Below, piece after piece: positions 30 through 24,882 of a stretch of 24,882 nucleotides of DNA (its first letter is position 1; every line of letters starts with the position of its first letter). Below the pieces are notes generated by a model. It worked only from the letters and a program-made list of their open reading frames with translations, had not been told where the DNA came from and did no database searches. Position numbers and translations under genes: made by a program. Location of the stretch: IMG/VR virus record IMGVR_UViG_3300037891_000829, positions 1 to 24,882 of that record. One strand, written 5' to 3'. The DNA is from a virus.

Positions 30-524
30 ATGGCATATAATACACCGGTTAATTACGGAACAGATAGATCAGTTGCATCCAGAACAATCTCTCCATCTCA
101 AAGCGGAGCACTTTCTAACAGTACGTATGTAAGTCCAAGAGTTTATAAAGGATTTAGTTCTAACAATCCTAATGCAAAAAACAATATGTTATATGATGCC
201 GACCTTATTAAACAAGACATTTATAATCATTTTATGACTGCAAAAGGCGAAAGAGTAATGCTACCCGACTTTGGTAGCATTATCTGGGACCATTTATATA
301 ACCCATTAGATGAAGTTACTAAATCAATTGTTAAAGAAGACGCTAAACAAATTGTTTCACAAGATCCAAGAGTAGCACTTACATATTGTAGTGTTGTAGG
401 ATTTGAACATGGAATTATAGTAAACTTAACACTAACGATATTACCTCAAAATATGGTAGAACAAATGTCAATAGAATTTAATGTCAACGGAAGTACAGGT
501 ACTTCAAGTGGAGGAGGATACTAA
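30..524 (+). CDS. 25: T4 gp25-like baseplate wedge protein
   Basis: This 164-aa protein matches the GPW/gp25 family, structural baseplate wedge components near the tail sheath of contractile phages. The family core is at residues 61-93: a DIYNHFMT segment, then KGER, PDFGS and a W-D-x-L segment, which is the usual gp25 signature. The N-terminal 50 residues are polar and low-complexity, and the C-terminus ends in a Gly/Ser tail, so it is somewhat longer than T4 gp25. The ATG at 30 follows a GAGG Shine-Dalgarno at 20-23. The stop shares one base with the next ATG, pointing to translational coupling with the gp6-like gene. Family members are often labelled 'lysozyme', but no catalytic role is implied here. 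Family assignment is firm; the structural role comes from T4 knowledge. Confidence 0.92.
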   Translation: MAYNTPVNYGTDRSVASRTISPSQSGALSNSTYVSPRVYKGFSSNNPNAKNNMLYDADLIKQDIYNHFMTAKGERVMLPDFGSIIWDHLYNPLDEVTKSIVKEDAKQIVSQDPRVALTYCSVVGFEHGIIVNLTLTILPQNMVEQMSIEFNVNGSTGTSSGGGY

Positions 525-10400: not shown

Positions 10401-13400
10401 ATTTAATTGGTTACCAAGAAAGAGATTATTTAACAAATTTAAAAATTAGTAAAACAAATCAAGTTAAGTTTTATCAAGGTATGATAAAACAAAAAGGTAC
10501 AACAAATGCTATTGATAGATTATTGCGTTCAACAACAGTAAGTACAGATCAAACATTTAACACATATGAAGAATGGGCATTTAAAGTAGGTGACTTTGGG
10601 TCAACAGCATTTAATCAACAAATAGAATTGCAAGTAAAAGCAAATGATGTTAATAGTGATCCACAAACGTTTGAATTTTTATTACCATCAGATGGTTCAG
10701 CTTCAGCGGGTTATGATAGCAAAACTGATGACGTAATTACTATTGATATTGATGATACAACACGTTGGTTGAAAAGACCAAAAGGTGAAAAATCTTTAGC
10801 TAATTTATGGCCAACAACGTCAACAGTTAGTTCAGTTATACCAACAGCAGGTTACGTACATTATGACGATGCTTCTTACAAAGCATTAGACTCTACAGCA
10901 TTGGCAAATGTATACGCAACTGCATCGGCAAATGTTTCTATAGGTAGTACAGTTTGGGTAGCTAAAGACGTAGTAGCAGGCAAAGATTGGAATGCTTATA
11001 AATTATATGATACAAATACAACTATTGATGGTATTGTAACAACTGGTGATGCCAATACTGCAATGACTGTTACTGTATCTGGAACAGGTGCTGATATTGG
11101 GCAAGAAAAAGATTTAATACTACATAAAAAATATGATAGTTCTGGAAACTTAGAAATTGACCCTCAAGAATGGGGAACACATAAAATAAAACTTAAAACA
11201 TTAACACCAACAATACCAACTGGCACAGTTTCGTTTTCAGATATAGCTGGCTCCGGAGCAGATATTGCCGTTGGTAATATTAATGGAACAATTACAGTAG
11301 TAACAGTTTCAGGAGGTGGTGCCGGATTTGCAGAAGGTGATGTTATAACATTTACTGGCAGTGGTGGTACTGGTGCGGCAATGCAAGTTGATAAAATTAA
11401 TAATGGTAGTGGAGCCAAAGCAACTGCAACAGTAAACGATACATTCCCAATTACATCTATACAAGTTTTAGAACAAGGATCTGGATACTCTAGTGCAACA
11501 GTTAGTATATCAGGTGGTGGCGGTACTGGTGCAACAGGTTCAGCAACAATTGCCGGTGGTAAAGTAACAGGGATTACTTTAACAGCCGCTGGTACAGGAT
11601 ATACATATCAACCAACAGTCACAGTTACAGGTGACGGTACTGGAGCAACATCATTTGCAACATTAGGTTCAGAAAAAGATGGGTTAATTACTGCTATAAC
11701 AATTAGCACTGGAGGTGTTGGATATCAATCAGCGCCAATAATAAAAATTGATGATAGCTCAGGTGTAGGTGCATCAGCAACTTGTACAATTGACGGAAGT
11801 GGTACTGTTAATGCAATTACTATAACCAATGCAGGTAGCGGATATACTTCTCCAACAGTTTCATTTACAGGAGCCTTGGTAGGTAATACTGGAGGAACTG
11901 GATTAACATTAGATAGTGGTGGTGACAATTATGCAGAAGCCCCAGATAATTATTCAGTTGTTGATTCTTCCGGAACAATAAAAACTTCAGGCACACATTA
12001 TACTCCAGCAACATTTACATTTACTGGAGATGGTACAAGTGGACGTTTAGGTGAAATTAAAGATTTAACTATTTTAAATGGTGGTACAAATTATCAGGCA
12101 CCAAGTATTAAAATTATAAACAACAGTGGATCAGCAGTAGCAACATTAACAACACCAGGAAATATTACTGTAGTAAGTGGAGTTATAACTGCAATTACAG
12201 TTCCAGCAGGTTTATGGAATAAAGGATTTAGTGCAGGAATTATTAGCACAGCAACAGGTAAAATATCAGTTGTTGATACTAAAGCAAATTATACTATAGA
12301 CTTATCTCCAAATTTAAGTAAGATACACGTTTTAAATAATCTTACTGCAAACGTAACAACAGCATTTGATGGAACAGTTACAGCCGTTGTTGAAAAATGG
12401 GATGGTGCATCAGCAACAACATTATATACAATAACAGGATTGGGAACTGCAGGAGTTAAAACAGTTGCTCCATCACAAAATATTACAGACAACTCAAATG
12501 CAACGGTTAGAGCAAATATTTCAGTATCGTCAGCAACAGTTGGAGTTATGTCTTTATCATTAGATTATACTAAAAAAGAATATACAGTTACTAAACCAGA
12601 TGGCAATGCTGAGTATATTACAACTAATAATTTAGTTGGTGGAATAAAATTACTTGATTGGAAAGACGTAAGACTTAATACCGGTATAGCAACTGATAAA
12701 GCATACGTTTCAACAAGTACTGCAACAACTATTGGAAATTTCTTAACAGGAACAGGTTTATCAAATAGTGCTTGGACAGACGGTGCTCTTATTTGGTTAG
12801 ATGATGACTTTACTGGCAAATGGGGAGTATATAGATATACTGCTAACGCAACAATAATATCTTCATACAATACAATACGTGGTAGCGAACCTGCAAGTGT
12901 AAGTGCGGCAGGTGGTACATGGATTTTACATAGTGGAGTTAATTATAGTGACGCAAGTCAAACAACAACATCATATTTTGAAAAAACAAAACGTAGACAA
13001 AAAGATAAAATTGATACAGCACAATTTAATAAAACATCACTATATGATAATAGAGATCATCAAATTGATGTAGATATGAATATTTACGATCCTGCAAAAG
13101 GTATATTACCTGCAACTGCTGATCGAGAAATAACATATAAAACTGAATTAGATCCTGCAATATATAATAATCACAGTGATACAACACAAATTAGTGATAG
13201 CAATCCTTGGGCCAGTGAATATATTGGACAAGTTTGGTGGGATCAATCAACAACAAGATATATTGATTATGAAAGTCATGACAATAATTATAGACGAACA
13301 CATTGGGGTAAATTGTTTACAGGAGCAACCATTGACGTATATGAATGGGTTAAATCACCACAACTTCCAGAATCATATATTGGAACAGGAACTGTTAAAT

Positions 13401-16186
13401 CAACAACAAATTATGTTAGTGAATTAACTATTGATCCGTATACAAATACAAATATAACAACATACTATTATTGGGTTAAAAACAAAACAACAGTACCACA
13501 GATAGATTCAAGAATAAGTGATGTTGCAACTGTATCAAACTTAATGACATCACCATTAACTCAAGGGTTAAGTTATTTTGCACCAATATCACCAAATTCA
13601 TTTATGATCGCAAACGTAGTTAATAATTTAACTAAAGATAATAGTGTTTTACAAATTAACTATAGAAATAGAAAAGTAAAAGATAAAACTGATAAAGCAC
13701 ACGCACAATGGTTATTGATTAGAGAAGGATATTCTGATACACAAATTCCAAATCAAATTTGGAACAAGTTACTAGATAGTAGTTGTGGGTTTGATAGAGT
13801 AGGTAATACTGTACCTGATACAACACTTTCGCCAAACGATAGATATGGATCAAAAGTTAGACCAAGACAAACTTGGTTTGTTGATATTAAAAATGCAAGA
13901 AAAGTTTTATACCAAACGTTAAACAACATTACTGCCAATATTAGTTTAGATGTCGAACATTCTAATTGGGATAGTACAGTTACAACTTCAGTATATCATG
14001 AAAAAATAAATTGGTATTATAATAATACATTTAGTGATGCAACTGTTATTGATGAAATTGTCGATTACAAAGCTGATATTGTTACTGCTAATCTTAATCA
14101 AGATGACGTAGTTAAAGTAAATTATGATTACGCATCTAAATGGGCATTATACAAATATACTGATGCTGACTTCTTAGCAGGTACATCAACATCAATTGAT
14201 TCAGACAACTTATCATTAGTAAGAATTGGATTGCAAACAGCAACAACTAAATTAAAAACAACTGTATATACTGAAGATAATTCTACAGCACTGGCAACTG
14301 AATTAAGACTGTATATAACTGCATTAAGATCAAATGTGTTTATTAGTGATAAACTTGGAAAACAAAACGAAGTATTGTTTGCATTGGTAAGATATATTGC
14401 AAGTGAACAAAGTCATTATGATTGGTTATTTAAAACAACATACATGAATGTAATTCAACAAGATACTACACTAACACAAAAAGCATCTTTTGAAAAAGAT
14501 CCATTTAGTGATATACGAACTTACATTGAAGAAGTAAAACCTTATAAAGCAAAAATTAGAGATTTCTTAAGTAAAAAATCTCCAGCAAGAGAAAATGCAA
14601 ATTTGGCAATGACTGACTTTACTTCTACATCAGATTATACAATTAACAATAGTGGTAGTGGTACAACAAATCCTACTCCTAAAGTTACAACCAAATTAGC
14701 ATTTGATAGAGTTAGTTCTAAGATAACATTGTTATCACCTTCAACAAATAATCCAAATTATACATGGGCAAATGGACAGTCATACGTAGCAGGACAAAGT
14801 ATAAAACATAATGGTGGTTATTGGCAAGTTACTGCAAATCATACTTCGGGAAATTTTGTTACAGACGTACAAGCAGGTAAATTAATATCTTATAACTTTA
14901 GTCCAACAACTGCACCAACTGATGGAGCATTGATTGAAAAAGTTAAAACATCAACTCCTGAATCAACACACGTTGATAGATTAGCAAAATACTATTTTGC
15001 AAATGAGTTGGCAAATGTAAATACTGCAAACGCAACTCAAGTAAGTACATTTACAACTAATTTAGAAAATGCAATTACGTCATTTAAAGATTTAGATGTT
15101 CAACCAATTGGCTTTGTTGTAAACAGAGATAGAATTGGAAAAGACTTAACTAACTTTGCTTGGGATAGTTTAAGATGGGATGCCACAGCATTAGACACAA
15201 ATACTGAAATTGGCTATGATGATGAAGCAACACAAATTTGGTATAATTCAAAATTTGTAAATGAAAATTTACAATGGAAAACAGGTACATCATTTGAAAA
15301 AGATTCATTTGTAAAATATTCAGACTTAACACACTTTACAGCATGGTCGGCATCAACAAGTTATACAGTTGGTGATATTGTAAAACATAATGACAAAGTT
15401 TATGTTGCAAACGTAACACATAAAAATTTAGCAAGTGAAACAACAATGCAAACGTCACGTTGGGATTTAGTTAGTGAATTAATTTACTACACGAACGAAA
15501 CTCACACAGCGTCAGCAACATTTGAAACTGATTATGATGCAGGTAAATGGGTGTTAGTAAAATCTAAATTAGATTCAGCAGGATTTGTAAGACCAGACAA
15601 AGATCCAAATCCAGAAGAACTTGCACCAATTAAACCAAAAGAAACTTTAAACATAAAAGTTAAAACTTATGCAAGTGTAACAGGTGCCGGAAGTGATGCA
15701 GATCCATATGTTGGAGCAGGTGATTTATCACAATATATGATTCACTATAAACCATATGGAACAGTTTCATATCTAAGACAAAAGTTTGTTAACACAGGAC
15801 CTGGATCATCAACAACAGATCATACAACATTAACAGCGGCAGTTACTCCATATTCAAATAAAATTAGTGTAGCCAATGCTAGTTTATTACCTAAGCCAAA
15901 AGATGTTGGAGTAACGGCTAGTGGAGCATACACACTTCAGCCAGCTGTAATTTATATTGGCAATGAAAGAATTGAATACAGTAGAATTAACGGCAATGAC
16001 TTGTTAGATGTTGTGCGTGGTACACAAGGTACAACAATTATAACTCATGCAAATTCAAGCGAAGTATACAGTGGAGATACAAATATACCAGGATCATCCT
16101 TAGGTTTTTGGAATGATAACGGATATAGTTTGCTTGATAGCTCAAATTCAACAGGGGATACAGCAAAGTACTTGCGTAATGAATAA
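4481..16186 (+). CDS. Giant multidomain baseplate/tail structural protein (3901 aa)
   Basis: This single open frame of 3901 codons follows directly after the gp6-like gene, where T4 has gp7 and gp8. It is therefore probably a greatly enlarged wedge or peripheral baseplate protein; that role is inferred from position. The N-terminal 140 residues (KRLPFVLQSSKLTNFFDSTV onward, rich in Tyr and Asn) look like a conserved attachment domain. Modules that can be seen include Gly-rich units at about 208-280 and 2271-2556, a cupredoxin-like domain at 655-774, an FKVGETVNG-type module at 1264-1330, Trp/Tyr carbohydrate-binding-like units near 1684, 3429 and 3622, and a conserved-looking helical patch near 3345-3365 (EEVKPYKAKIRDF). 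The C-terminus has an IGNERIEYSRI...VVRGTQGT motif common in phage virion proteins. The ATG follows AAGGG at 4466-4470. No frameshift or internal stop occurs. Confidence 0.8.
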   Translation: MAEQFVASKRLPFVLQSSKLTNFFDSTVDQWFKNEENEFTNGFVGRRQGRIYQAKKDAYLGEPSVDRFNYQLEPSVVVRDNDTQNISYQTTYDDLVNKLRFDGGDISNHSKLFEESYYSFSPAIDIDKFLNYANYYWYPSHDDLTTETAGVFPILPATIVNGSSGTQINPATDIVGKSTYTAPDGTIFTNGLQIQFGQSVTNNAYKFHHTVTALNLTAGGTGYAVNDTIIISTVVVGKVTSVSSGVINGIDLTTTALGDGVTPTAVTVVSSSGNNAKITASTTQTNNTYVIAGVGKEIKLIDVRTLRNLQEQTSSTKDYITIERGARDGNVWSKSNGWVHKTTLENYPSLTTSSTDNHLWDTGDWDEISQAWDSVTVTSTTAFTKTTERRATRPIIEFNKDLELYDYGKKHILDVTVIEETLSKTQIETQANVAIDGRQIQNRDTILFPNAASQDDYVQWDDGLWDHDVDSDATTGGGGNTGGDTGWDVSSTSFTIEGSIWKVSGVGSQIKLTQVISSVDKNDKVYISKGTTYGGTEWYYDGYNWNQAQLKNASNSAPLFNLYDNNKVILDDAGVYPTSTFTGSKIFGYKVGTGANDTELGFPLSYITGTGQSDIEFNNYLNVDSYTYNTSTAISGYKYYKQYLYPETIAKTINYEVNINPSKKDSTKNVYYIDGDEQPILILQRGNTYNFKTSSPETGSSGYTNANHPLYISSGTTWSKNGYENEYLAGVTGSRAYYGGASSVLEFTVPSTAPNTLYYNCATHNSAIKLVIIDNPITKLNDAIETYYKNEWSKNKKLKQRLVQEHTVTSANLTDKPTLEVIPTSIIDMDVYRNGVKQVFGIDYTTNRSVEIVFVSVLKENDFVKVYYDTNNNTPIKAINYYEIPKNLESNASNEEVASGSYSEFFQHFESIVQNQIGFTGDISGANNYRDTARDSSKGLVILQHDGSLLKTMAFTNNNDLDVMSSIRYVKNRYQEFQLKFLNSVNKIQVTQDASLLTTAQVVDKALKNINIDKLPSTPFANSFMLASGDRFTAETHKITTTTHTWGNTNTFLQGSETQEIFNTEPGLMISSAYSPITDYDKEALYIYKNNVLMLYNHEYIINSSSAGTKLIFIGYASDKPKVNDTITVRHYTTIQPTWVPPTPAKIGASKVYKPEELSDTVTYSSGTRNFIQCHDGALVLKYGDLRDTALLELEKRIYNSINKRFTNRDYAVLLDPNSIQPNFFNSTSWTRDDITNLMRPLFTRWASENALNYQENTGYTNIINFSSSSGTFKVGETVNGGSSGAKGIITKVGTNTITVNNVIDSFRLSETVTGKTSSATGSIATSNGVAIDWRVLNYSTLTDSNNLSLPGHWRGIYRWYYGTDRPHSNPWEMLGFSQKPLWWDNYYSWTSTSTRAQLISDIEQGIIRDGDRANYSNNTYLNADNVYKKPGFSSYVPVDSTGNLLSPLQAGIIATNPTEVNSQLDWKFGDGAPVENAFYTSSTYQYAIQKLLYLTTPGSYVDLLWDSNSLIKSKADNNQIIDSTSGKRSNNTDYYVHSETDSNQTTYYKAGVQNFIVDYLTYKGKPIKSSFGNVVRNLQTNLTYRCAGFIDKSTLQVESEAYDSTSNATSITVPTEDVNVSLHTGGSIQEAAYSGVVVQAVEGGYKLFGYDIVNPYFSALTPLISGRSKKVRVGGKSVSPVGYNPGTTYHRDEVVQHEEKYYQATETHVSLTADKSPNLTKWKILRVLPTVGGTEVEHYFDYDTSEIKKCAYGTVYKTRQEVYDIICGYGEYLQQFGWVFDDFNTDIAENKDFKYSAKEFLFWSLGKWDKGTFITLSPSADKIRFIPTSGVVQGITDINNGVYSVLNKEGFGLDAKQLEITRDDDIVTIIHKDKIGIYGLRLSVKETEHIITLNNKTIFNDTIYNTVLAQRQPRIKLSTIKSLGWRGKLEANGYIISGTSLINNFEKSVTDSRLYYDVNASLVSTKFRDAAMHLIGYQERDYLTNLKISKTNQVKFYQGMIKQKGTTNAIDRLLRSTTVSTDQTFNTYEEWAFKVGDFGSTAFNQQIELQVKANDVNSDPQTFEFLLPSDGSASAGYDSKTDDVITIDIDDTTRWLKRPKGEKSLANLWPTTSTVSSVIPTAGYVHYDDASYKALDSTALANVYATASANVSIGSTVWVAKDVVAGKDWNAYKLYDTNTTIDGIVTTGDANTAMTVTVSGTGADIGQEKDLILHKKYDSSGNLEIDPQEWGTHKIKLKTLTPTIPTGTVSFSDIAGSGADIAVGNINGTITVVTVSGGGAGFAEGDVITFTGSGGTGAAMQVDKINNGSGAKATATVNDTFPITSIQVLEQGSGYSSATVSISGGGGTGATGSATIAGGKVTGITLTAAGTGYTYQPTVTVTGDGTGATSFATLGSEKDGLITAITISTGGVGYQSAPIIKIDDSSGVGASATCTIDGSGTVNAITITNAGSGYTSPTVSFTGALVGNTGGTGLTLDSGGDNYAEAPDNYSVVDSSGTIKTSGTHYTPATFTFTGDGTSGRLGEIKDLTILNGGTNYQAPSIKIINNSGSAVATLTTPGNITVVSGVITAITVPAGLWNKGFSAGIISTATGKISVVDTKANYTIDLSPNLSKIHVLNNLTANVTTAFDGTVTAVVEKWDGASATTLYTITGLGTAGVKTVAPSQNITDNSNATVRANISVSSATVGVMSLSLDYTKKEYTVTKPDGNAEYITTNNLVGGIKLLDWKDVRLNTGIATDKAYVSTSTATTIGNFLTGTGLSNSAWTDGALIWLDDDFTGKWGVYRYTANATIISSYNTIRGSEPASVSAAGGTWILHSGVNYSDASQTTTSYFEKTKRRQKDKIDTAQFNKTSLYDNRDHQIDVDMNIYDPAKGILPATADREITYKTELDPAIYNNHSDTTQISDSNPWASEYIGQVWWDQSTTRYIDYESHDNNYRRTHWGKLFTGATIDVYEWVKSPQLPESYIGTGTVKSTTNYVSELTIDPYTNTNITTYYYWVKNKTTVPQIDSRISDVATVSNLMTSPLTQGLSYFAPISPNSFMIANVVNNLTKDNSVLQINYRNRKVKDKTDKAHAQWLLIREGYSDTQIPNQIWNKLLDSSCGFDRVGNTVPDTTLSPNDRYGSKVRPRQTWFVDIKNARKVLYQTLNNITANISLDVEHSNWDSTVTTSVYHEKINWYYNNTFSDATVIDEIVDYKADIVTANLNQDDVVKVNYDYASKWALYKYTDADFLAGTSTSIDSDNLSLVRIGLQTATTKLKTTVYTEDNSTALATELRLYITALRSNVFISDKLGKQNEVLFALVRYIASEQSHYDWLFKTTYMNVIQQDTTLTQKASFEKDPFSDIRTYIEEVKPYKAKIRDFLSKKSPARENANLAMTDFTSTSDYTINNSGSGTTNPTPKVTTKLAFDRVSSKITLLSPSTNNPNYTWANGQSYVAGQSIKHNGGYWQVTANHTSGNFVTDVQAGKLISYNFSPTTAPTDGALIEKVKTSTPESTHVDRLAKYYFANELANVNTANATQVSTFTTNLENAITSFKDLDVQPIGFVVNRDRIGKDLTNFAWDSLRWDATALDTNTEIGYDDEATQIWYNSKFVNENLQWKTGTSFEKDSFVKYSDLTHFTAWSASTSYTVGDIVKHNDKVYVANVTHKNLASETTMQTSRWDLVSELIYYTNETHTASATFETDYDAGKWVLVKSKLDSAGFVRPDKDPNPEELAPIKPKETLNIKVKTYASVTGAGSDADPYVGAGDLSQYMIHYKPYGTVSYLRQKFVNTGPGSSTTDHTTLTAAVTPYSNKISVANASLLPKPKDVGVTASGAYTLQPAVIYIGNERIEYSRINGNDLLDVVRGTQGTTIITHANSSEVYSGDTNIPGSSLGFWNDNGYSLLDSSNSTGDTAKYLRNE
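6443..6802 (+). other. Cupredoxin-like domain within the giant structural protein
   Basis: Residues about 655-774 follow the cupredoxin plan. A strand precedes a GNTYNF segment, then comes a His in NHPLYIS (H708), a longer loop, an LEFTVPSTAPNTLYYNC strand with Cys761, and His764 three residues later. H, C and H are three of the four type-1 copper ligands. Related marine phage virion domains typically read C-x2-H-x2-M, but the Met position here is Ala767, so the usual axial ligand is absent. Whether copper is bound cannot be told from sequence; the fold may be purely structural. Confidence 0.55.
8270..8470 (+). other. FKVGETVNG/SETVTGKTS twin beta module
   Basis: Residues about 1264-1330 of the giant protein contain two half-repeats. 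Each has a hydrophobic-Gly-Glu-Thr-Val-x-Gly strand followed by a Ser/Gly/Ala turn (GGSSGAKG, then GKTSSATGS). Between them is a short strand-rich linker. The pattern recurs in virion proteins of marine phages as a small beta module, probably a spacer or surface domain. No catalytic residues are visible. Confidence 0.45.
9530..9658 (+). other. Trp/Tyr carbohydrate-binding-like module A
   Basis: Residues about 1684-1726 of the giant protein fit the short ChtBD3/CBM5-12-like pattern: YNPGTTY, then DEVVQHEEKYYQA, then a loop ending in TKWKIL. Spaced Tyr, a V-x-H strand, a paired aromatic and a closing W suggest a small sugar-binding or sugar-binding-derived fold. Modules B and C in the same protein follow the same plan. 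Ligand binding is inference. Confidence 0.5.
11291..12148 (+). repeat. Tandem Gly-rich beta repeat array (about six units)
   Basis: Residues about 2271-2556 of the giant protein hold about six diverged units of 38-55 residues. Each runs as an ITxIT(V/I) strand, a G-x-G-Y turn, an SxPTVxI strand and a GGGGTGATG-type Gly-rich turn. The best matches are the middle units (QGSGYSSATVSI, AGTGYTYQPTVTV, GVGYQSAPIIKI, AGSGYTSPTVSF). The DNA is correspondingly rich in ggt/gga and aca codons. Such arrays usually form an elongated beta stalk and can change copy number by recombination. Confidence 0.75.
14765..14887 (+). other. Trp/Tyr carbohydrate-binding-like module B
   Basis: Residues about 3429-3469 of the giant protein repeat the plan of modules A and C: WANGQSYVAGQSIKHNGGYW followed by a QVTANHTS strand. 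The W, Y, G, H-x-G and aromatic positions line up with the ChtBD3-like pattern. The closing Trp of modules A and C is not present here. Confidence 0.45.
15344..15472 (+). other. Trp/Tyr carbohydrate-binding-like module C
   Basis: Residues about 3622-3664 give the clearest copy of this module: WSASTSYTVGDIVKHNDKVY, then VANVTHKN, closing with SRWDLV. The W-x-x-x-x-x-Y-x-x-G-D-x-V spacing is the classical ChtBD3/CBM5-12-like signature. A degenerate further unit ending in DAGKWVLV follows directly. It lies near the C-terminus of the giant protein, so it may be exposed at the baseplate surface, where glycan contact would make sense. Confidence 0.55.
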
Positions 16187-16983: not shown

Positions 16984-18309
16984 ATGCCATATACAGTAAA
17001 CAACACACGAGGAAGTATTGTTTCAACGGTAAATGACGGTACTACTGCTTCTATAGGTGGTATTACTTTAATTGGTAAAAACTTCACTGGTTATGGTGAA
17101 ACTATTGCCGAAGATTTTATAAAATTATTAGAAAACAATGCAAACACATCAGCACCAGCAGATCCACAAGAAGGACAGCTTTGGTGGGATACAACATATC
17201 AATCTTTAAAGGTTAGACTTTCAGGTTCAACTGGATGGCATCCAACAACAGTACACGTAGGTGCAACATATCCTCATGCAACTACATCAGGTTCTCTATG
17301 GTACAATACATCTACAAAACAATTAAACGTTAACGTAGATGGTACTGCAACAGGTTACAAACAATTTGCTTCAGCATCAGATAAATCATACACACAGGTT
17401 GTAGAATTAACTGCAACACACGTTGATGATGCATCAGCAAACAACAACGGTTACGTTGTTTCAGACAAAATTCAAGTAATTGCAGAAATTTTACAAACTA
17501 AAGCAGGTGCAGTTGAAGTAGCAAGAGTTGTTTCTCCAGCACATTTTAGATTTGCTGATCCAGGTGCAGGCACAGGTGTAAAAGTTGAAAAAGCAATCTT
17601 TGATGGCTTTACAGCGGCTATTACAGTAAGTTCATCTACAAGTACACAAACAGGTACATTAATTCACGGAGTTAATACTTGGGACAGTTTACAATCAGAA
17701 GGTGTTAATGCAGACCAATTAGGTGGTCATAGTGCATCATCATTTTTAAGATTAACAGCAACAGGCGGAACGTCAATTGTTCAACAACACATTGTTCCAC
17801 CAGCACACGGTTCAGCTGGTCAACCATCAGGAACACAACAAGGTTCAGCATCAATTGATTTAGGTGGCGATGGTAAGTTTTTCAGAAACGTTTATGCACA
17901 GGCAATGATTGCACAATATGGTGATATAGCAGAACGTTATGAAGCTGACGATGAATATGATTGTGGAACAGTTGTTGCACTAGCAGGTAACAAAGAAGTA
18001 ACACAAACAACAGAATTTAAAGATACAAAAGTATTTGGTGTAGTATCACAAAAACCAGGTCTAAAGTTAAATGCTTTAGCTGGAGATGATGCAACCCATC
18101 CATATATTGCTTATCAAGGTCGAGTGCTAACGAAAGTTATCGGCTCAGTAAGTAAAGGTGATCGTATTGTTTCTAGTACACTACCGGGCGTAGCACAACT
18201 AGTAGAAGACGAGAATAATGTTGATTACCGTGCGGTTATTGGCCGCAGTCTTGTCGACAAGACTTCGGAAGAAGTCGAATTAATTCCAATTGCAATAGGA
18301 GTAAAATAA
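16984..18309 (+). CDS. Tail fibre-like protein with C-terminal chaperone-like domain
   Basis: This is a 441-aa phage adhesin or fibre. The N-terminus (YTVNNTRGSIVSTVNDGT, then GKNFTGYGE) is the attachment type seen in marine phage fibres. Two beta units with a GQLWWDTTYQSLKV or GSLWYNTSTKQLNV core lie near residues 64 and 103. A fibre-type ADQLGGHSASSFLR segment lies near 243. From about residue 290 onward the protein carries the GDIAERYEADDEYDCGTVV domain (D314 onward), related to the C-terminal intramolecular chaperone or autoprocessing domains of phage appendages. Whether it is cleaved is not visible. It starts at an ATG with AGGAG 10 bases upstream, behind a late promoter, and overlaps the next gene by one base. 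The final 150 bases use unusual codons. Confidence 0.83.
   Translation: MPYTVNNTRGSIVSTVNDGTTASIGGITLIGKNFTGYGETIAEDFIKLLENNANTSAPADPQEGQLWWDTTYQSLKVRLSGSTGWHPTTVHVGATYPHATTSGSLWYNTSTKQLNVNVDGTATGYKQFASASDKSYTQVVELTATHVDDASANNNGYVVSDKIQVIAEILQTKAGAVEVARVVSPAHFRFADPGAGTGVKVEKAIFDGFTAAITVSSSTSTQTGTLIHGVNTWDSLQSEGVNADQLGGHSASSFLRLTATGGTSIVQQHIVPPAHGSAGQPSGTQQGSASIDLGGDGKFFRNVYAQAMIAQYGDIAERYEADDEYDCGTVVALAGNKEVTQTTEFKDTKVFGVVSQKPGLKLNALAGDDATHPYIAYQGRVLTKVIGSVSKGDRIVSSTLPGVAQLVEDENNVDYRAVIGRSLVDKTSEEVELIPIAIGVK
18250..18276 (+). repeat. Adjacent palindrome and GGAA-loop inverted repeat at fibre gene end
   Basis: CTTGTCGACAAG at 18250-18261 is a perfect 12-base palindrome. It is followed without a gap by GACTTC-GGAA-GAAGTC (18261-18276), a 6-bp stem closed by a GNRA-type tetraloop. 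Both lie in codons of the last 20 residues of the fibre protein. The local GC is clearly higher than in neighbouring genes. Possible roles are an RNA hairpin that tunes the coupled downstream start, or a recombination junction. Confidence 0.5.
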
Positions 18310-19247
18310 TGGCTTACCAACAAGGTGATACAATTCAAGCAAGTGATTACAACACATTTGCGACAAACATTAACACAATAATTGGTACTGGCTCAACAGA
18401 TAGTGGTTATGGGAACACAGAAGTCGCATCGATTTCTGCAGGGAACACAATTACAGCGGCACAATGGAATGCATTACTTTCTGCTTTACAGAAAGGTGCT
18501 AACCACCAAGGTACTACATTGACGAATGCGTCAAACACAGTATCAGCGGGCGGAAACATTTTGCCATTATCAAACTTAGAGGCAGATATCACATTAATTA
18601 CAAATAACAAAGCAACAGCAGATGCGTCAAATATGGCAACTGACACTGGTGTAACTTCAACAAGAACATCAGCTTGGTCAGGAACAGTACAACACATATT
18701 TACAGTAACATTTGCTAGTGCAAACGCAGGCAGACACTTTTTTAACTCAGGTGGTGAAATTAGATTTGCTGGATCACGTTCAGGTGGTTCTTCAACAGAT
18801 CAAAACACTGACTGGACTAACTTATTGTCAGATGCGGCAACAGTAAAATTTGCAGAGACTTCAACTTCATACACTGGTTCAGGTGGAACAGCGGCTTCAG
18901 TTGGTTTTGATGATTTAACAACATCAAATCAACAAATTTTTACAGCAACTGGCGATGGACAGTATACAGCGAATGATTGGACAATCGAAGCAAAAGCGAA
19001 TGCGGCTTATGGGTCAGCAACCGTTTTAACGTTTACTGTTTATTTTAAAGATGACCATGCTTCTTCAACTGGTACATTTACTGGTGGCGGTTTAGGTACT
19101 GCTCCAAACGAAGGTACAGGTTGGACTGGTGCTGACTCAGTTGATGGAACTTTAACTAGCACAATTACTACATTAAGAGCGGATAACGCCTCTAAAGTAC
19201 AAGTTGCTAATCCAAGTTCTAACACAACTACAGAAGTTAGTGCATAA
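18309..19247 (+). CDS. Second fibre/adhesin-like virion protein
   Basis: This 312-aa protein overlaps the fibre gene stop by one base (TAATG) behind AGGAG at 18297-18301, so the two are co-translated. The N-terminal 75 residues contain two similar units, DTIQASDYNTFATNINTI and NTITAAQWNALLSALQ, a Q-x-S/A-x-D/Q-Y/W-N pattern that suggests a duplicated helical cap. The middle has a RHFFNSGGEIRFAGSRSGG segment familiar from phage structural and fibre proteins. The rest is beta-strand and Gly/Ser/Thr rich, without enzyme motifs, Cys or a membrane segment. It probably caps or accompanies the fibre, possibly as a receptor-contact protein. That role is inference from the operon and composition. Confidence 0.68.
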   Translation: MAYQQGDTIQASDYNTFATNINTIIGTGSTDSGYGNTEVASISAGNTITAAQWNALLSALQKGANHQGTTLTNASNTVSAGGNILPLSNLEADITLITNNKATADASNMATDTGVTSTRTSAWSGTVQHIFTVTFASANAGRHFFNSGGEIRFAGSRSGGSSTDQNTDWTNLLSDAATVKFAETSTSYTGSGGTAASVGFDDLTTSNQQIFTATGDGQYTANDWTIEAKANAAYGSATVLTFTVYFKDDHASSTGTFTGGGLGTAPNEGTGWTGADSVDGTLTSTITTLRADNASKVQVANPSSNTTTEVSA

Positions 19248-19264: not shown

Positions 19265-19293
19265 TTGACTTTTACGCCTCCGTTATGTATAAT
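19265..19293 (+). promoter_or_regulatory. Sigma70-type promoter for the modification operon
   Basis: TTGACT at 19265-19270 and TATAAT at 19288-19293 are separated by exactly 17 bases, a near-perfect host housekeeping promoter. The predicted start is near 19300, giving a leader of about 18 bases that contains GGAGG (19307-19311). It uses a different promoter class from the late promoters upstream, so the downstream genes could be expressed early or through the whole infection. The -10 box lies inside the hairpin of the overlapping terminator. Confidence 0.65.
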
Positions 19294-19317
19294 ATTATAC
19301 ATAAACGGAGGTTTTTT
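19277..19317 (+). terminator. Intrinsic terminator overlapping promoter and RBS
   Basis: CCTCCGTT (19277-19284) pairs with AACGGAGG (19304-19311). The stem continues through ATGTAT/ATACAT with one bulged A, closing an AT-rich loop, and is followed at once by six T residues (19312-19317). This is a strong rho-independent terminator for read-through from the fibre operon. The 3' arm is also the GGAGG Shine-Dalgarno of the gene at 19318, so any read-through RNA would hide that site. Confidence 0.72.
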
Positions 19318-19668
19318 ATGAGTGATGAACGATTACACAAAGCATTAGAATTTGCTAATTATAGGCAGACATTTTTTAATCAAAAACAAATCCTGAAAAA
19401 TAAAAGTCAGGCATTGCTATCATATTCAACAGAGGGTGGTACATTTAAAGTAACACAAGAGTTAATTGCTTTTGTTGGTACTTTTGTACAACAAGGATAT
19501 GAAGAAATGGTATTGTTAGATGTAAATGAAAATCCAATTAAGATAGATAATTTAAAATCTTTCTTAACAGAAATTACATCAAGATATTTTGAAGTAACAA
19601 ATGATTATCATAAGCAATATAGTGAAATGCAAACTAAAAGAAGAACTGCAAAATTAGTAGAAGCATGA
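19318..19668 (+). CDS. Small protein of unknown function, first gene of the cassette
   Basis: This 116-aa protein (MSDERLHKALEF onward) has no recognised domain. An N-terminal amphipathic helical stretch rich in Lys, Gln and Phe is followed by a TEGGTFKVTQELIAFVGTFV beta-helix patch, then VLLDVNENPIKI and a C-terminal charged helix. There is no signal peptide, membrane segment or Cys. I choose the ATG at 19318 because GGAGG ends 6 bases before it. An in-frame ATG at 19285 lies inside the terminator stem and upstream of the predicted transcript start, so it is unlikely to be used. The stop overlaps the next start (ATGA). Its position suggests a small partner of the enzymes downstream or a phage assembly protein; neither can be shown. 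Confidence 0.72.
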   Translation: MSDERLHKALEFANYRQTFFNQKQILKNKSQALLSYSTEGGTFKVTQELIAFVGTFVQQGYEEMVLLDVNENPIKIDNLKSFLTEITSRYFEVTNDYHKQYSEMQTKRRTAKLVEA

Positions 19669-20549
19669 GCAAAGGTATAGTATTTTTTGCACATAACAAT
19701 TCTGAAATTGATTATGGTAGTATAGCATTAGCAAACGCCTTAATGATTAAACATCATATGGGGCTTGACGCTATTACTTTAATTACTGACGAAGGTACTG
19801 TAAGACACTTAAAGACACAATATGATCAAAGTTTACTTGATAGTACCTTTGAAAATATAAAAATACAACCAAGAAAAAAAGTAGATAATAACAAACGTTA
19901 TAGAGATACAAGACATACAGTAAATTTATTACAATTTTATAATATTAATAGATCAACAGTTTTTACACAATCTCCATATGATGAAACATTAGTTATTGAC
20001 GTTGATTATTTAATTTGTAATAATACGTTAAATCAAATCTGGGGACATAAAGAAGACTTGATGATTAATAGAAAAAGTTATGATTTATTATCTGGAAGAC
20101 GTCACCAAGAGTTTGATAGAGTAGATGATTTTGGAATTGACTTTTACTGGGCTACTGTATTTTTCTTTAGAAAAACAGAACAAACAGAAATATTTTTTAA
20201 TCTATTAGAAGCTATTAAAGAAAATTATCCTTACTTTAAAACACTCTACGGAATTAACACGTACAACTTTAGAAATGATCATGCATTTAGTATTGCTGTT
20301 CATATGTTTAATGGTTTTGCAAAAAGTCAATTAGTAAAAAACCTTCCAGTTGATTTTTTACAACACACATTAGATTATGATGAACTTCATAATGTAGATT
20401 CAAAAGGATCACTATCATTTTTATTAGAAAAAATAAGTGAACCTGGAAACTTTATTCCAGCACGTACTGATGGCGTTAATGTCCATGTAATGAACAAGTA
20501 TTCAATTGTACGACAGAGTAAAAAAATAGTAGAGATGTATAGTGCATAA
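19665..20549 (+). CDS. GT-A-like glycosyltransferase (first paralogue)
   Basis: This 294-aa protein resembles nucleotide-sugar transferases of the GT-A fold. It opens with a short strand (GIVFFAHNN), then helical LANALMIKHH, and carries a metal/nucleotide-binding DxD motif, D112-V-D114, in the hydrophobic context ETLVIDVDYLI. A preceding SPYDETL matches TPYEQTV in the gene at 21093, so the two are paralogues. The C-terminal part (aromatic-rich, with NVHVMNKYS) would form the acceptor side. No membrane segment is seen, so it should act in the cytoplasm, on phage proteins, DNA or host glycan precursors. The start overlaps the previous stop (ATGA) and the end overlaps the GTG start downstream by 8 bases. 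Donor and acceptor are unknown. Confidence 0.74.
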   Translation: MSKGIVFFAHNNSEIDYGSIALANALMIKHHMGLDAITLITDEGTVRHLKTQYDQSLLDSTFENIKIQPRKKVDNNKRYRDTRHTVNLLQFYNINRSTVFTQSPYDETLVIDVDYLICNNTLNQIWGHKEDLMINRKSYDLLSGRRHQEFDRVDDFGIDFYWATVFFFRKTEQTEIFFNLLEAIKENYPYFKTLYGINTYNFRNDHAFSIAVHMFNGFAKSQLVKNLPVDFLQHTLDYDELHNVDSKGSLSFLLEKISEPGNFIPARTDGVNVHVMNKYSIVRQSKKIVEMYSA

Positions 20550-21096
20550 AATTTTATTAACAGACATAGACGGCGTAGTATTAAACTGGTCAGACCATTT
20601 TCAAAAATATTTAAAACAGTATTATCCAGAAGTATCGTTGTGGGATCCTACAACATTTGCACAATCAGATCAAACAGCAGACATTATAAAATATTATAAT
20701 AATACTGCATGGATTGGGTTCTTGCCTCCTTTAAGAGATGCACAAGAAATATTACCAAAGTTTAAACAAGAGGGTTGGGAAATTATTGCTTGTACATCAA
20801 TGGGTGTAGATCAATATGCAAACGCATTACGAAAACAAAATATTGAAAGTTTATTTCCAGATGTGTTCGCAAGAATTGATATTATTCCATTTATGGAACC
20901 AAAAAACAAATGGCTATCACAATACAAAGGAAGTGGTGCTATATGGGTGGAAGACAAGTGGACAAACGCAGTAGCAGGTGCTGATATTGGGCTTAAGACA
21001 TACTTTATGAAGCATGAATACAATGCAAAGTATAGTGCAAACAATATTGAAAAAGTTGATAATTGGATACAAATTTACAATAAGGTGAACAAATGA
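20542..21096 (+). CDS. HAD-superfamily phosphatase, nucleotidase-like
   Basis: This 184-aa protein shows the HAD phosphatase motifs in order: motif I D8-I-D10-G (nucleophile and acid/base Asp), motif II CTSMG with Thr85/Ser86, a Lys region PKNKW near 120-124 as motif III, and motif IV VED (E137, D138) followed by KWTNA. Size and layout fit the small 5'(3')-deoxyribonucleotidase-like branch, which removes phosphate from nucleotides or sugar phosphates. The start is a GTG at 20542 overlapping the upstream gene by 8 bases; the in-frame sequence before it lacks a better start. Placement between two glycosyltransferases fits dephosphorylation of a sugar-phosphate or nucleotide intermediate. That substrate is inference. 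Confidence 0.78.
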   Translation: MHKILLTDIDGVVLNWSDHFQKYLKQYYPEVSLWDPTTFAQSDQTADIIKYYNNTAWIGFLPPLRDAQEILPKFKQEGWEIIACTSMGVDQYANALRKQNIESLFPDVFARIDIIPFMEPKNKWLSQYKGSGAIWVEDKWTNAVAGADIGLKTYFMKHEYNAKYSANNIEKVDNWIQIYNKVNK

Positions 21097-21968
21097 AACA
21101 AGGTTATTTGGTAATAGCACAGAATTCTAAAGATGCAGATGGCAAATCTATTAATTATGTACGTATGGCTTATGCATTAGCATTAAGTATCAAGCATACA
21201 CAATCACAAATTAAAAATATATCTATTGCTGTTATTAATAAATCAGATGTACCAGAACATTATAGAGCAGTATTTGATGAAGTTATTGAATTACCTTTTG
21301 AAGATGATGCTCAAATGGCAGATTGGAAAATTAACAACAAATGGAAATACTATCATTGCACACCTTATGAGCAAACAGTAATACTAGATACTGATATGTT
21401 GTTTATGACAGACCTAAGCCATTGGTGGGAATATTTTACACATTGGGATATGATGGCAACAACTAACGTTCAAACATATCGTGGCGAAACAATAATTGAT
21501 AATCATTATAGAAAAACATTTGGACCAAATATGTTGCCAAATGTATATACAGCATTTTTTTATTTTAACAAAAAATCAAGTATGGTAAATGAATATTTTA
21601 GTGTAGTTGAGGATATATTTAGACGTTGGGAATATTATAGAGATACATCACTAGTTTTACCAAAACAAGAATTTTTAAGTGCAGACGTTGTATATGCAAT
21701 GGCAATGAAAATGTTAGATATAGTTGAGCTATCAACTAATCCAGCAGTAACTTGTCCAACCTTTGTACACATGAAACCAAAATTACAAAATTGGAAGTCT
21801 GGAGCAAATGATGATTGGACTAAATCTATTGGAGCATATTTCACTCCTGATTGCAAATTAAAAATTGGTAATTATCAACAAACATTACCAGTTCATTATG
21901 TAACAAAGAATTTTCTTACAGATGAAATTATAAAAAGATATGAGGAGCAAGTATATGTCAACGTCTAG
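21093..21968 (+). CDS. GT-A-like glycosyltransferase (second paralogue)
   Basis: This 291-aa protein is a paralogue of the one at 19665. It has an N-terminal strand GYLVIAQNS, then MAYALALSIKHT, and the DxD motif D99-T-D101 within EQTVILDTDMLF, typical of sugar-nucleotide-dependent transferases that use a divalent metal. Downstream patches NVYTAFFYFNKKS and CPTFVHMKP align in order with WATVFFFRKT and NVHVMNKYS of its sister. It is cytoplasmic by lack of signal or membrane segments. AAGGTG at 21081-21086 precedes an ATG that overlaps the HAD stop (ATGA). Retention of two sister transferases suggests two successive sugar additions or two acceptors; the sequence does not name them. Confidence 0.76.
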   Translation: MKQGYLVIAQNSKDADGKSINYVRMAYALALSIKHTQSQIKNISIAVINKSDVPEHYRAVFDEVIELPFEDDAQMADWKINNKWKYYHCTPYEQTVILDTDMLFMTDLSHWWEYFTHWDMMATTNVQTYRGETIIDNHYRKTFGPNMLPNVYTAFFYFNKKSSMVNEYFSVVEDIFRRWEYYRDTSLVLPKQEFLSADVVYAMAMKMLDIVELSTNPAVTCPTFVHMKPKLQNWKSGANDDWTKSIGAYFTPDCKLKIGNYQQTLPVHYVTKNFLTDEIIKRYEEQVYVNV

Positions 21969-22569
21969 AATATTATATTATGATTTAGAAACAAAAGACA
22001 TTATAAAAATTGTTGGTGAAGTTGATAGCTCTGTTACACATCCATATTATGAAATTGAGTTTGAAGATATAAAAGAATTTATTGACGGTACAAAAGTACA
22101 ATCACAATATTACATAGAATTAAATCCAAAAGATCCAAATGATTTTACAATTAAGAAAAAAGAAATACATTTGAATATAAGAGAAATAGATAAAACACTA
22201 CATAAAATTAGACAAGGTACAGATGATGATTTAAGTTATGATATTAGAGTTGTACATAATAAACAAGATAAAACAATTAGTTTTGAATTTAACCCTACAT
22301 TAAAAGCATATATGGCAAGTAAGTATCAACTTACAGGTAAACAGCAAAAGTTTACTAATCCAGAAATGCTTGTAATAAATGGAACAAGTATACTAAACTT
22401 CTTTATAACACAAACAGGTGACCCACATGATTTATTTGCAAGTTATTATGTACCTGTTGTACAGCTACTTACACAAGATAAGTTAACAGCACCTTACAAA
22501 GGAGAGTTAAATACTTGTAACGTGTTTACACGAAGAATATATGACGATTACTTAATGGTGGAGAAATAA
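21955..22569 (+). CDS. Conserved-looking hypothetical phage protein
   Basis: This 204-aa protein (MSTSRILYYDLETKD onward) is Asp, Lys and Ile rich with no motif I can assign. The N-terminal half alternates strands and acidic helices, a KKKEIHLNIREIDKTLHKIR helix is central, and the C-terminus has an NGTSILNFFITQTGDPHDLF patch. The start at 21955 is chosen because GAGGAG (21942-21947) sits 7 bases before it. An in-frame ATG at 21940 would contain that Shine-Dalgarno and has none of its own. The gene overlaps the end of the glycosyltransferase by 14 bases and is 1 base from the next, so it belongs to the operon. Function unknown; it may be a partner subunit. Confidence 0.68.
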   Translation: MSTSRILYYDLETKDIIKIVGEVDSSVTHPYYEIEFEDIKEFIDGTKVQSQYYIELNPKDPNDFTIKKKEIHLNIREIDKTLHKIRQGTDDDLSYDIRVVHNKQDKTISFEFNPTLKAYMASKYQLTGKQQKFTNPEMLVINGTSILNFFITQTGDPHDLFASYYVPVVQLLTQDKLTAPYKGELNTCNVFTRRIYDDYLMVEK

Positions 22570-22570
22570 T

Positions 22571-23605
22571 ATGGAAATAGATACAAATATACAAAAAGAC
22601 AAAGAATTAAAGATAAAAATATCTGATATAGACATATTTTACCTATCATATGATGAACCTAATTACCAAGAACATTGGGCAGATATTGTAAACAAAGTTC
22701 CATGGGCAAAACACGTACATGGTGTAGAAGGTTCTGATGCGGCACACAAAGCCTGTGCTAATAGAAGTGATACTGATCGATTTATTACAGTAGATGGCGA
22801 TAACAAGTTAGTTAACTATGATAAACTAATTGATTTAGAATTAGATTTTTCAGACTATAATTTAGAAAACTTAAATCAATCGGTTATATCTTTTACAGGT
22901 TATAATAACATTAATGGATTAATGTATGGTAACGGTGGTATTAAATGCTGGCCCAAACAAGCAGTACTTGATATGAAAACCCACGAAGCGGCAGAATCAG
23001 AAGGCTCTGCGGTAGACTTTTGTTGGGATATGAATTACATACAATTAAATGAATGTTTCTCACACGTATATAATAATGCAACACCGTATCAGGCATATCG
23101 AGCAGGTTTTAGAGAAGGTGTTAAAATGTCATTAGATAGAGGATTCAAGGTCGATCCAGTTAACTTTGAAAAAAACGTACATGATAAAAACTATCATAGA
23201 CTTCTAATATGGGCATCAGTTGGTATGGATGTGCCAAATGGTTTATGGGCATTATATGGTACTAGACTTGGTTGTTACATGACTAATTGTACCGATTGGG
23301 ATTTTGTTAAAGTGCGAGACTTTGAAGAACATACTAGGTTTTGGAATGAAGAAGTTAAACCTCAATTTGCAGGTGGCAATGAAACTTGTCATTATGAAAA
23401 GTATCAATGGGATAAAGATAAACTTTGGAATGAAACTATACGGCTTGGTAAAGAGTTAAGAAACAAACTTGGAATGCAAATTGATGATTTAAGTGCAGAA
23501 GGTTCTGCATTCTTTAAGAAAGTATATTGGAATCCACCTAGATCTGGAGCATTTGTAACAGAGAAAGGTACTGACGGAATTACTCGTTATAAAGTATTGA
23601 AATGA
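22571..23605 (+). CDS. GT-A-like glycosyltransferase-type protein (third, distinct family)
   Basis: This 344-aa protein starts at an ATG with GGAG 7 bases upstream. The N-terminal 80 residues resemble a nucleotide-sugar-binding Rossmann-like domain: DIDIFYLSYDEPNYQEHW, then HGVEGSDAAHKACANRS, then a D75-G-D77 motif in FITVDGDNKLV, the place of the GT-A DxD. The C-terminal part is rich in Trp, Tyr and Cys (for example NCTDWDF) and unlike the other two transferases. It shares the operon with them and overlaps the radical SAM start by four bases. It probably transfers or recognises a sugar. The acceptor is unknown, and a binding-only role is possible because the remaining catalytic residues cannot be identified. 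Confidence 0.63.
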   Translation: MEIDTNIQKDKELKIKISDIDIFYLSYDEPNYQEHWADIVNKVPWAKHVHGVEGSDAAHKACANRSDTDRFITVDGDNKLVNYDKLIDLELDFSDYNLENLNQSVISFTGYNNINGLMYGNGGIKCWPKQAVLDMKTHEAAESEGSAVDFCWDMNYIQLNECFSHVYNNATPYQAYRAGFREGVKMSLDRGFKVDPVNFEKNVHDKNYHRLLIWASVGMDVPNGLWALYGTRLGCYMTNCTDWDFVKVRDFEEHTRFWNEEVKPQFAGGNETCHYEKYQWDKDKLWNETIRLGKELRNKLGMQIDDLSAEGSAFFKKVYWNPPRSGAFVTEKGTDGITRYKVLK

Positions 23606-24882
23606 CCGATGAAGTACTTAAAATTAAACAAACCAGAAACAAACTAAATGCTGTTTCACCAAGTTTTTGTCTAGCAAAGTGGTATCAATCAACGATACAC
23701 TTACAGTATGGACACACACATAGTTGTCATCATCCAAGAACACACAAAGTACCTGTAGAAGAACTAAAAAATAATCCTAGTGCTTTACATAATACAGAAT
23801 ATAAAAAATCACAAAGAGAATTAATGTTAAAAGGAGTAAGGCCTCCTGAATGCCAGTATTGTTGGAATGTAGAAGACCTAGGTCCAGAACATTATAGTGA
23901 TAGAAGTTCTAAATCAAATGAAGAGTGGGCTAAACCTTTTTTAAAAGAAACAGCTGACATGGTTGGTGTAGAAAATGTTAATCCAACTTATGTCGAAGTT
24001 AGTTTTTCAAATGTATGCAATTTGAAATGCTCTTACTGTTCACCTGCATTTAGTAGTTCATGGATGGAAGAAATCCAATCTCAAGGAGCATACCCAACAA
24101 GTGATAATTTTAATAATTTAGATTGGCTACGAAAAGAAGGCAAATTACCTATTCCGCATCGTGAACATAATCCGTATGTTGACGCATTTTGGAAATGGTT
24201 CCCTGACCTGTATAAAAACCTCCAAGTTTTCCGAATCACAGGTGGGGAACCGCTTTTAACTAAAGATACATTTAAAGTCTTAGATTACATTAATAATAAT
24301 CCAAGACCAGAATTAGAGTTAGCAATTAATTCTAATGGATGTGTTCCGGATAAACTTTTTGATCAGTATATCGAAAAAATGAAACGTATTACGTTAGATA
24401 ATAAAATTGGTTTAACTAGACTGTATACAAGTGTAGATACATTTGGAGAACAAGCAGAATACATTAGAGATGGATTAAATTTTAACCAATGGTATGATAA
24501 TATATGCCGTGTGTTAACAGAACTGCCAAAAACAAAAGTAACAATAATGTGTACAACTGGATTATTGAGTTTACCAAACTTTCATAAACTTGTAGATATG
24601 ATACATCCATTAAAAAGAGAATTTTATAGTCATGCTAGAAAAGTACCAATAACATTAGATACAGCAATACTAAGACATCCAAGTTATTTAAGTGGTGTAG
24701 TTGCTGATCCTAGTTATTCTAATATGTTAGATAGCTCTGTTAAAATTATGTTAGAAAATGCAGAAACATATGATAATCCTTACAAAGGATTTTTTGATTT
24801 TGAAATAGCAAAGCTAAAACGTTTTCAACAGTATATTGCGGCAGGACCCAATCCACAAGAACGATTAAATATAAAACAAGTA
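23602..24882 (+). CDS. Radical SAM enzyme with N-terminal twitch-like Cys domain, partial
   Basis: The frame starts at the ATG of an ATGA overlap and stays open for 427 codons to the window edge. The radical SAM core has C139-x3-C143-x2-C146 (CNLKCSYC), the [4Fe-4S] site that cleaves S-adenosylmethionine, and RITGGEP (G214-P217) for SAM binding. Before the core, C23, C42 (in HSCHHP) and C84-x2-C87 (ECQYCW) form a four-Cys set like the twitch/SPASM auxiliary-cluster fold. That fold usually follows the core in peptide-modifying radical SAM enzymes; here it comes first. It is probably cytoplasmic. The substrate could be a peptide, a protein side chain or a sugar; the glycosyltransferase neighbours make a sugar or glycoprotein plausible. 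The C-terminus is outside the window. Confidence 0.85.
   Translation, partial: MTDEVLKIKQTRNKLNAVSPSFCLAKWYQSTIHLQYGHTHSCHHPRTHKVPVEELKNNPSALHNTEYKKSQRELMLKGVRPPECQYCWNVEDLGPEHYSDRSSKSNEEWAKPFLKETADMVGVENVNPTYVEVSFSNVCNLKCSYCSPAFSSSWMEEIQSQGAYPTSDNFNNLDWLRKEGKLPIPHREHNPYVDAFWKWFPDLYKNLQVFRITGGEPLLTKDTFKVLDYINNNPRPELELAINSNGCVPDKLFDQYIEKMKRITLDNKIGLTRLYTSVDTFGEQAEYIRDGLNFNQWYDNICRVLTELPKTKVTIMCTTGLLSLPNFHKLVDMIHPLKREFYSHARKVPITLDTAILRHPSYLSGVVADPSYSNMLDSSVKIMLENAETYDNPYKGFFDFEIAKLKRFQQYIAAGPNPQERLNIKQV

Follow-up and report, generated by a model that had tools for sequence, protein, structure and literature searches.

A glycosyltransferase and radical SAM gene block behind tail genes

The window analyzed here is a linear IMG/VR virus record of 24,882 bases (positions 1-24,882 of IMGVR_UViG_3300037891_000829; G+C content, 32%). 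Its distal part, from 19318 to 24882, holds seven plus-strand open reading frames (ORFs) that overlap by 4 to 14 bases or, in one case, stand 1 base apart, as the original prediction had described. The block is near-invariant in the tail region of a widespread phage group, yet it codes for metabolic enzymes, among them predicted glycosyltransferases (GTs) and a radical S-adenosylmethionine (SAM) enzyme. Its genes are as follows.

19318..19668, plus strand: g1, 116 amino acids (aa), first gene of the core block, function unknown
19665..20549, plus strand: g2, predicted GT8-like GT-A glycosyltransferase (fold model, conserved catalytic residues)
20542..21096, plus strand: g3, predicted HAD hydrolase (Pfam NT5C), an accessory gene that most loci lack
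21093..21968, plus strand: g4, second predicted GT8-like glycosyltransferase, homologous to g2
21955..22569, plus strand: g5, 204 aa, fast-evolving, core block, function unknown
22571..23605, plus strand: g6, protein with a modeled GT-A core (residues 18-169) and a DXD motif (D75/D77)
23602..24882, plus strand: g7, N_Twi radical SAM enzyme (NF033640); the contig stops after 427 of its ~462 aa

Overlaps measured 4 bases at g1/g2, 8 at g2/HAD, 4 at HAD/g4, 14 at g4/g5 (using the conserved g5 start at 21955) and 4 at g6/g7, while g5 and g6 were separated by a single base. The start of g1 was set at 19318, since a longer ORF from 19285 lacks conservation in most relatives. Homologs of g7 in related phages were 460 to 468 aa long, and the gene following them encoded a second radical SAM enzyme of about 506 aa.

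Conservation and transcription signals of the block

Three tail genes directly precede the block; homologs of all three were found in the Pseudomonas jumbo phage PA5oct, and homologs of v4 and v5 in the Sinorhizobium phage Phosso.

16228..16875, plus strand: v4, conserved protein of the tail/baseplate region (phrog_11259; homologs in PA5oct and Phosso)
16984..18309, plus strand: v5, fiber-like virion protein (homolog in PA5oct)
18309..19247, plus strand: v6, fiber-like protein rich in Ser/Thr (28.5%) and free of Cys, in every case the immediate upstream neighbor of g1

Scanning with only g6 retrieved 14 related loci, all of which had g1, g2, and g6 in order. Genes g4 and g5 were also present in 13 of the 14, v4-v5-v6 stood in front wherever the locus reached, and a second radical SAM gene, ~36% identical to g7, occurred in nearly all loci with enough downstream sequence. 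Alignment-based scans recovered at least 577 relatives of g6, at least 569 of g2, and 474 of g4. The arrangement v6-g1-g2-g4-g5-g6 was found in order and adjacent in 53/77, 63/72, and 58/68 new loci from the g6, g2, and g4 scans, respectively (174/217 in total; the three sets share some contigs, so that the counts are not fully independent, and many loci without the full order were cut at contig ends or lacked g4). Once near-identical g2 sequences had been dropped, 147 loci still showed v6 followed by all five core genes in order. As the anchors g6, g2, and g4 belong to the block themselves, v4 was used as an outside anchor. With it, g1 was seen in 33 of 56 loci with at least 7 kb of downstream sequence, and the other 23 mostly contained extra fiber genes before the sequence ended. 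In 27/27 loci where v6 was followed by 2.5 kb of sequence, the next gene recognized was g1.

The order shared by about 200 loci is well beyond chance and indicates that the block belongs to the core genes of a group of uncultured aquatic jumbo myoviruses rather than being a chance cluster. Our neighborhood check bore out the original prediction that these genes travel together; independent occurrence in relatives is not what the loci show. The HAD gene, which had been counted as part of the pathway set, has to be taken out of the core: only 15 HAD ORFs, from a handful of loci, were present across all fetched loci, and the gene was found elsewhere within radical SAM islands (e.g., G002:217280-217882). 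Distances of g1 to g6 tracked those of v6 (r, 0.64 to 0.76). In some relatives g6 was duplicated in tandem.

The 70-base gap between v6 and g1 holds two putative transcription signals.

19265..19293, plus strand: sigma70-type promoter-like site, TTGACT-17-TATAAT; the -35 element begins 53 nucleotides before the g1 start
19277..19311, plus strand: near-perfect hairpin followed by T6 (19312-19317); it pairs the GGAGG ribosome-binding site of g1

Promoter-like sites (at least 10 of 12 positions) occurred at the v6-g1 junction in 42% of 178 distinct loci versus 3% in shuffled sequences. At seven other junctions the frequency was 0 to 8%, so that enrichment was confined to v6-g1, and the distance from the site to the g1 start was nearly constant (quartiles, 52 to 55). 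Strong hairpins recurred at v6-g1 among relatives and surpassed those in the other gaps, taken from two relatives (median z, -3.3 versus -1.1). With a promoter-like site and a hairpin of its own, the block seems to be transcribed as a unit by itself and not as a plain continuation of the adhesin operon. This refines the earlier description of one operon behind phage adhesins.

Predicted enzymes and their substrates

Genes g2 and g4 were homologous to each other by profile comparison (hhalign E, 3e-13). A fold model was made for g2, and g4 was assigned through its profile homology to g2. The AlphaFold model of g2, built from a joint g2/g4 alignment, reached a predicted local distance difference test (pLDDT) score of 95.2 and matched the GT8 structures of glycogenin (Z 15.4 over 219 residues) and LgtC (Z 14.6); the joint profile also matched glycogenin by sequence (E, 1e-5). 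D112, D114, H274, and K278 of g2 were retained in 100% of 186 homologs, and D99, D101, and H268 of g4 in 98%, 99%, and 98% of 178 homologs. Both proteins thus share with glycogenin and LgtC the modeled fold, the DXD motif, and the His that serves as third metal ligand, but they are only 9 to 14% identical to them. Because the Pfam GT8 model matched none of 50 g2/g4 members at an E value of 0.01, we call g2 and g4 GT8-like rather than GT8; on the basis of the model, both are predicted GT-A glycosyltransferases. Pfam, PHROG, and NCBIfam assigned no GT family to g2, g4, or g6, and g4 matched PHROG 1903, a family of unknown function. Each of four large phage contigs carried exactly two GT8-like genes, adjacent and inside the block.

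The model of g6 (pLDDT, 89.7) contained a GT-A core at residues 18 to 169 (best Z 9.6 over 138 residues), and its DXD motif, D75/D77, was kept in 87% of 300 sequences. The model matched both GT-A and nucleotidyltransferase chains, and since the latter scored nearly as high, the activity of g6 is less certain than that of g2 and g4; we consider it a predicted third GT-A protein. Folds and conserved catalytic residues support the GT-A-like proteins of the original prediction, for g6 less surely than for g2 and g4. A profile comparison of g6 with g2 and g4 found no relation. Domains resembling g6 also occurred in long open frames of 951 aa and 1,024 aa (G026:16221-18524 and G024:181092-182678), in which a portion of the domain was matched several times. 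PDB sequence profiles returned nothing useful for g1, g2 alone, or g6, and for g5, the fastest evolving block protein (median identity, 18%), only weak stray matches (best E, 0.0009) and no passing stretch.

The product of g3 is a predicted hydrolase that matched Pfam NT5C just over the cut-off (25.6 versus 24.8 bits). Its likeness to this deoxynucleotidase family bears on a possible role of the block in hypermodification of DNA or nucleotides, in which the GTs would glycosylate phage DNA and the HAD enzyme would remove canonical deoxynucleoside monophosphates. Phage GTs are able to glycosylate DNA (PMC12619734), but most loci lack the HAD gene, just two of eight large contigs had a match to the thymidylate-synthase/hydroxymethylase family above the cut-off, and the block lies beside tail genes. 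We regard this role as very improbable.

Gene g7 matched the Pfam radical SAM model as well as NCBIfam N_Twi_rSAM. An intact ortholog at L003:8993-10381, 95% identical to g7, matched NF033640 with 343.7 bits (cut-off, 170), and the second copy with 293 bits. The radical SAM motif CX3CX2C was present in 246/246 family sequences, and the cysteines C23, C42, C84, and C87 of the N-terminal twitch were each conserved in 96% of them; judged from this pattern, the four cysteines would fit one auxiliary cluster. The family was expanded in the two largest close relatives, contigs of 328 kb (G001, IMGVR_UViG_3300020477_000990, loci L016-L032) and 243 kb (G002, IMGVR_UViG_3300020477_001008, loci L033-L045), which contained 21 and 22 radical SAM matches, with 14 and 17 over the N_Twi cut-off, respectively. 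About ten radical SAM genes were arranged near-tandem at G002:198815-215619. Among other large contigs, 21/22 carried at least one radical SAM gene, and the number reached 14. A gene for a ferredoxin-NADP-reductase-like protein adjoined radical SAM genes in both expanded contigs (G001:86276-87034 and G002:215743-216510), and its product may supply them with electrons.

The closest cellular relatives of these radical SAM genes were mostly from Bdellovibrionota metagenome bins. Of 19 radical SAM loci in 11 such genomes of predatory bacteria, 6 had a GT2 or GT4 gene no more than 3 kb away (expected, 0.45; P = 4e-6); further bacterial loci were found beside an ABC-2 exporter pair, or beside a GT4-GT2 fusion and GT87 proteins. 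In the 328-kb phage contig, one operon encodes a PP-loop ATPase, a NodU-like carbamoyltransferase, and a nucleotide-sugar dehydrogenase, followed by a radical SAM enzyme. By guilt by association, neighboring genes for GTs, exporters, a carbamoyltransferase, and a sugar dehydrogenase indicate that the likely substrates are sugars rather than peptides, in line with the sugar pathway originally proposed.

Many twitch/SPASM radical SAM enzymes act on peptide substrates. It is therefore conceivable that the block combines two unrelated functions, with the GTs working on sugars and the radical SAM enzymes maturing peptides or fiber proteins, for instance by cross-links like those of ribosomally synthesized and posttranslationally modified peptides or by epimerization. 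The radical SAM row behind the block would agree with such a division, as it varied from none to six genes in the stretches seen and was absent from some loci that keep g1 to g6, and radical SAM distances correlated less with those of the block (0.50 to 0.58). The association of both the bacterial relatives and the phage operon with glycan genes speaks against it, however, and we think a split of this kind unlikely.

One Bdellovibrionales metagenome-assembled genome (MAG; contigs C275, C24, and C35 of G021; L301-L306) yielded 19 N_Twi radical SAM matches in a single bin. Many of them lay on one 54.5-kb contig, which has several families in common with the phages and could be either an island or a binned phage.

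Possible acceptors and related phage systems

The remaining features of the window lie upstream of v4, from the window start.

30-524: T4-type gp25 wedge protein
524-4477: gp6-like wedge protein
4481-16186: v3, a single virion protein of 3,901 residues (phrog_10938)

The counterpart of the 3,901-residue protein in G002 measures 4,061 aa. A search for collagen-like repeats, which might have made v3 an acceptor, found none. Of the proteins compared here, v6 had the highest Ser/Thr content, which makes it a candidate acceptor. PA5oct has homologs of v4, v5, and v6 in the same order as the window, annotated as detected by electrospray ionization tandem mass spectrometry (ESI-MS/MS), the v5 homolog with the label of virion protein, and Phosso has those of v4 and v5, again in that order.

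The enzymes of the block may act in one pathway, whose probable product is an unusual coat of sugars on either the phage or its host. Our leading interpretation, which we hold tentatively, is that the block is a glycan-assembly unit whose radical SAM enzymes alter sugars, the likeliest acceptor being the upstream tail fibers (v6, possibly v5). In such a pathway, g2, g4, and the third GT-A protein, g6, would transfer sugars in succession in the cytosol, and g7, together with the variable row of N-terminal-twitch radical SAM enzymes that follows it, would carry out radical chemistry on those sugars. The HAD hydrolase would be an optional helper, g1 and g5 would be scaffold or adaptor proteins, and the fibers would be glycosylated before assembly. 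Through the variable radical SAM row, the glycan would differ between strains.

The enzymes could instead modify the host surface: expressed early through a promoter of their own, they would change the O-antigen or capsule of the infected cell, e.g., to block superinfection. The sigma70-type promoter fits this, as do the good match of g2 to LgtC, since GT8 enzymes of that kind act in lipopolysaccharide synthesis, and the GT2/GT4 and ABC-2 exporter neighbors of the bacterial radical SAM relatives. A host-surface role has also been proposed for GTs of pelagimyophages and cyanophages (PMC7029224 and PMC7824862). On the other hand, surface-glycan cassettes are described as sporadic (PMC7824862), whereas the present block is near-invariant. 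No membrane segments were predicted in the block proteins of the window, and a flippase, polymerase, or exporter alongside the GTs, as is characteristic of O-antigen or capsule loci, was not among its block genes. We favored a virion target because of the fixed place beside tail genes, the distances that track v6, the lack of export machinery, and the Ser/Thr-rich v6; weighing the two, we put the virion near to, though short of, an even chance, and considered the host surface somewhat unlikely.

Three observations weigh against our leading interpretation. Because of its own promoter, the block may be expressed ahead of the late tail genes, in which case a host target fits equally. PA5oct possesses the tail genes v3 to v6 with no such enzymes behind them, so that these tail proteins do not need the block. 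Finally, g1 and g5 had no known fold by PDB sequence profiles. That the jumbo phages of this large uncultured aquatic group decorate their own tail fibers with glycans diversified by an expandable radical SAM row is a possibility that we rate as somewhat unlikely; if true, it would be the first radical-SAM-dependent virion glycosylation system. A glycan on virions would explain the many GT and radical SAM genes of aquatic phages and would give the N_Twi_rSAM family a function, none having been described in the literature searched.

Several components of such a system have precedents. Pelagimyophages carry GT8-type GTs and radical SAM cassettes beside tail-fiber genes, in a host recognition cluster, and the cassettes differ between close relatives (PMC7029224). 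That region is hypervariable and nonsyntenic, whereas here, in a larger and different phage group, g1-g2-g4-g5-g6 is fixed and variation is mostly confined to the radical SAM row. Moraphages are likewise large aquatic phages with core GTs (four orthogroups), for which virion or DNA targets were suggested, but neither radical SAM enzymes nor a tail-adjacent block were found in the text of that paper (PMC12619734); glutamine synthetase, which it does mention, was not found in eight large contigs of the present group. The Campylobacter phages CP220 and CPt10 resemble our phages in having many radical SAM genes in one genome (11 to 12, in exchangeable clusters, function unknown; PMC2853527). Here, the N_Twi_rSAM genes lie next to GTs, and the g7 ortholog matched no cultured phage by tblastn. 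Phosso and PA5oct share the tail gene order described above, and Atu_ph07 has a v5 homolog, but Phosso and PA5oct lack GT8-like and g6 genes. In Phosso, a cupin gene and a set of four radical SAM genes that belong to another type lie directly behind the v3-v4-v5 homologs (L281:15999-23742), which suggests that modification genes behind these tail proteins extend more widely than the present group.

The original prediction that no pathway with exactly this set had been described held within the literature searched, with the partial precedents PMC7029224, PMC2853527, and PMC12619734. Already published are GTs and radical SAM genes by tail fibers, core GTs, and phages with 11 to 12 radical SAM genes. 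Within the literature searched, the new elements are the fixed core g1-g2-g4-g5-g6 and its promoter, the attached N_Twi_rSAM row, the scale of its expansion, and the link of this family to glycan loci.

A tblastn search with g1, g2, g4, g6, and the intact g7 ortholog against 50,697 phage records gave zero matches, and no cultured member of the group was found in that collection. The phage had been taken for a marine T4-like phage. It is a myovirus, but T4-like only distantly, and is better described as a jumbo myovirus with tail-protein relatives in PA5oct, Atu_ph07, and Phosso. Bdellovibrionota were considered as hosts because of their radical SAM genes; as the respective contigs carry neither block nor tail genes, no host was assigned. 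The exception among these bin contigs, L300 (NZVE01000006.1, binned as a Rhodobacteraceae MAG), is a piece of a phage in its own right and carries v4-v5-v6-g1-g2-g4-g6 along with several radical SAM genes. G001 encodes a permuted transfer-messenger RNA of alphaproteobacterial type (L020:14937-15228; Rfam RF01849, 131.6 bits), which hints at an alphaproteobacterial host. The same contig is rich in tRNA genes, and its ends share an exact 75-base repeat that spans a tRNA-Ala gene; it may therefore represent a closed genome.

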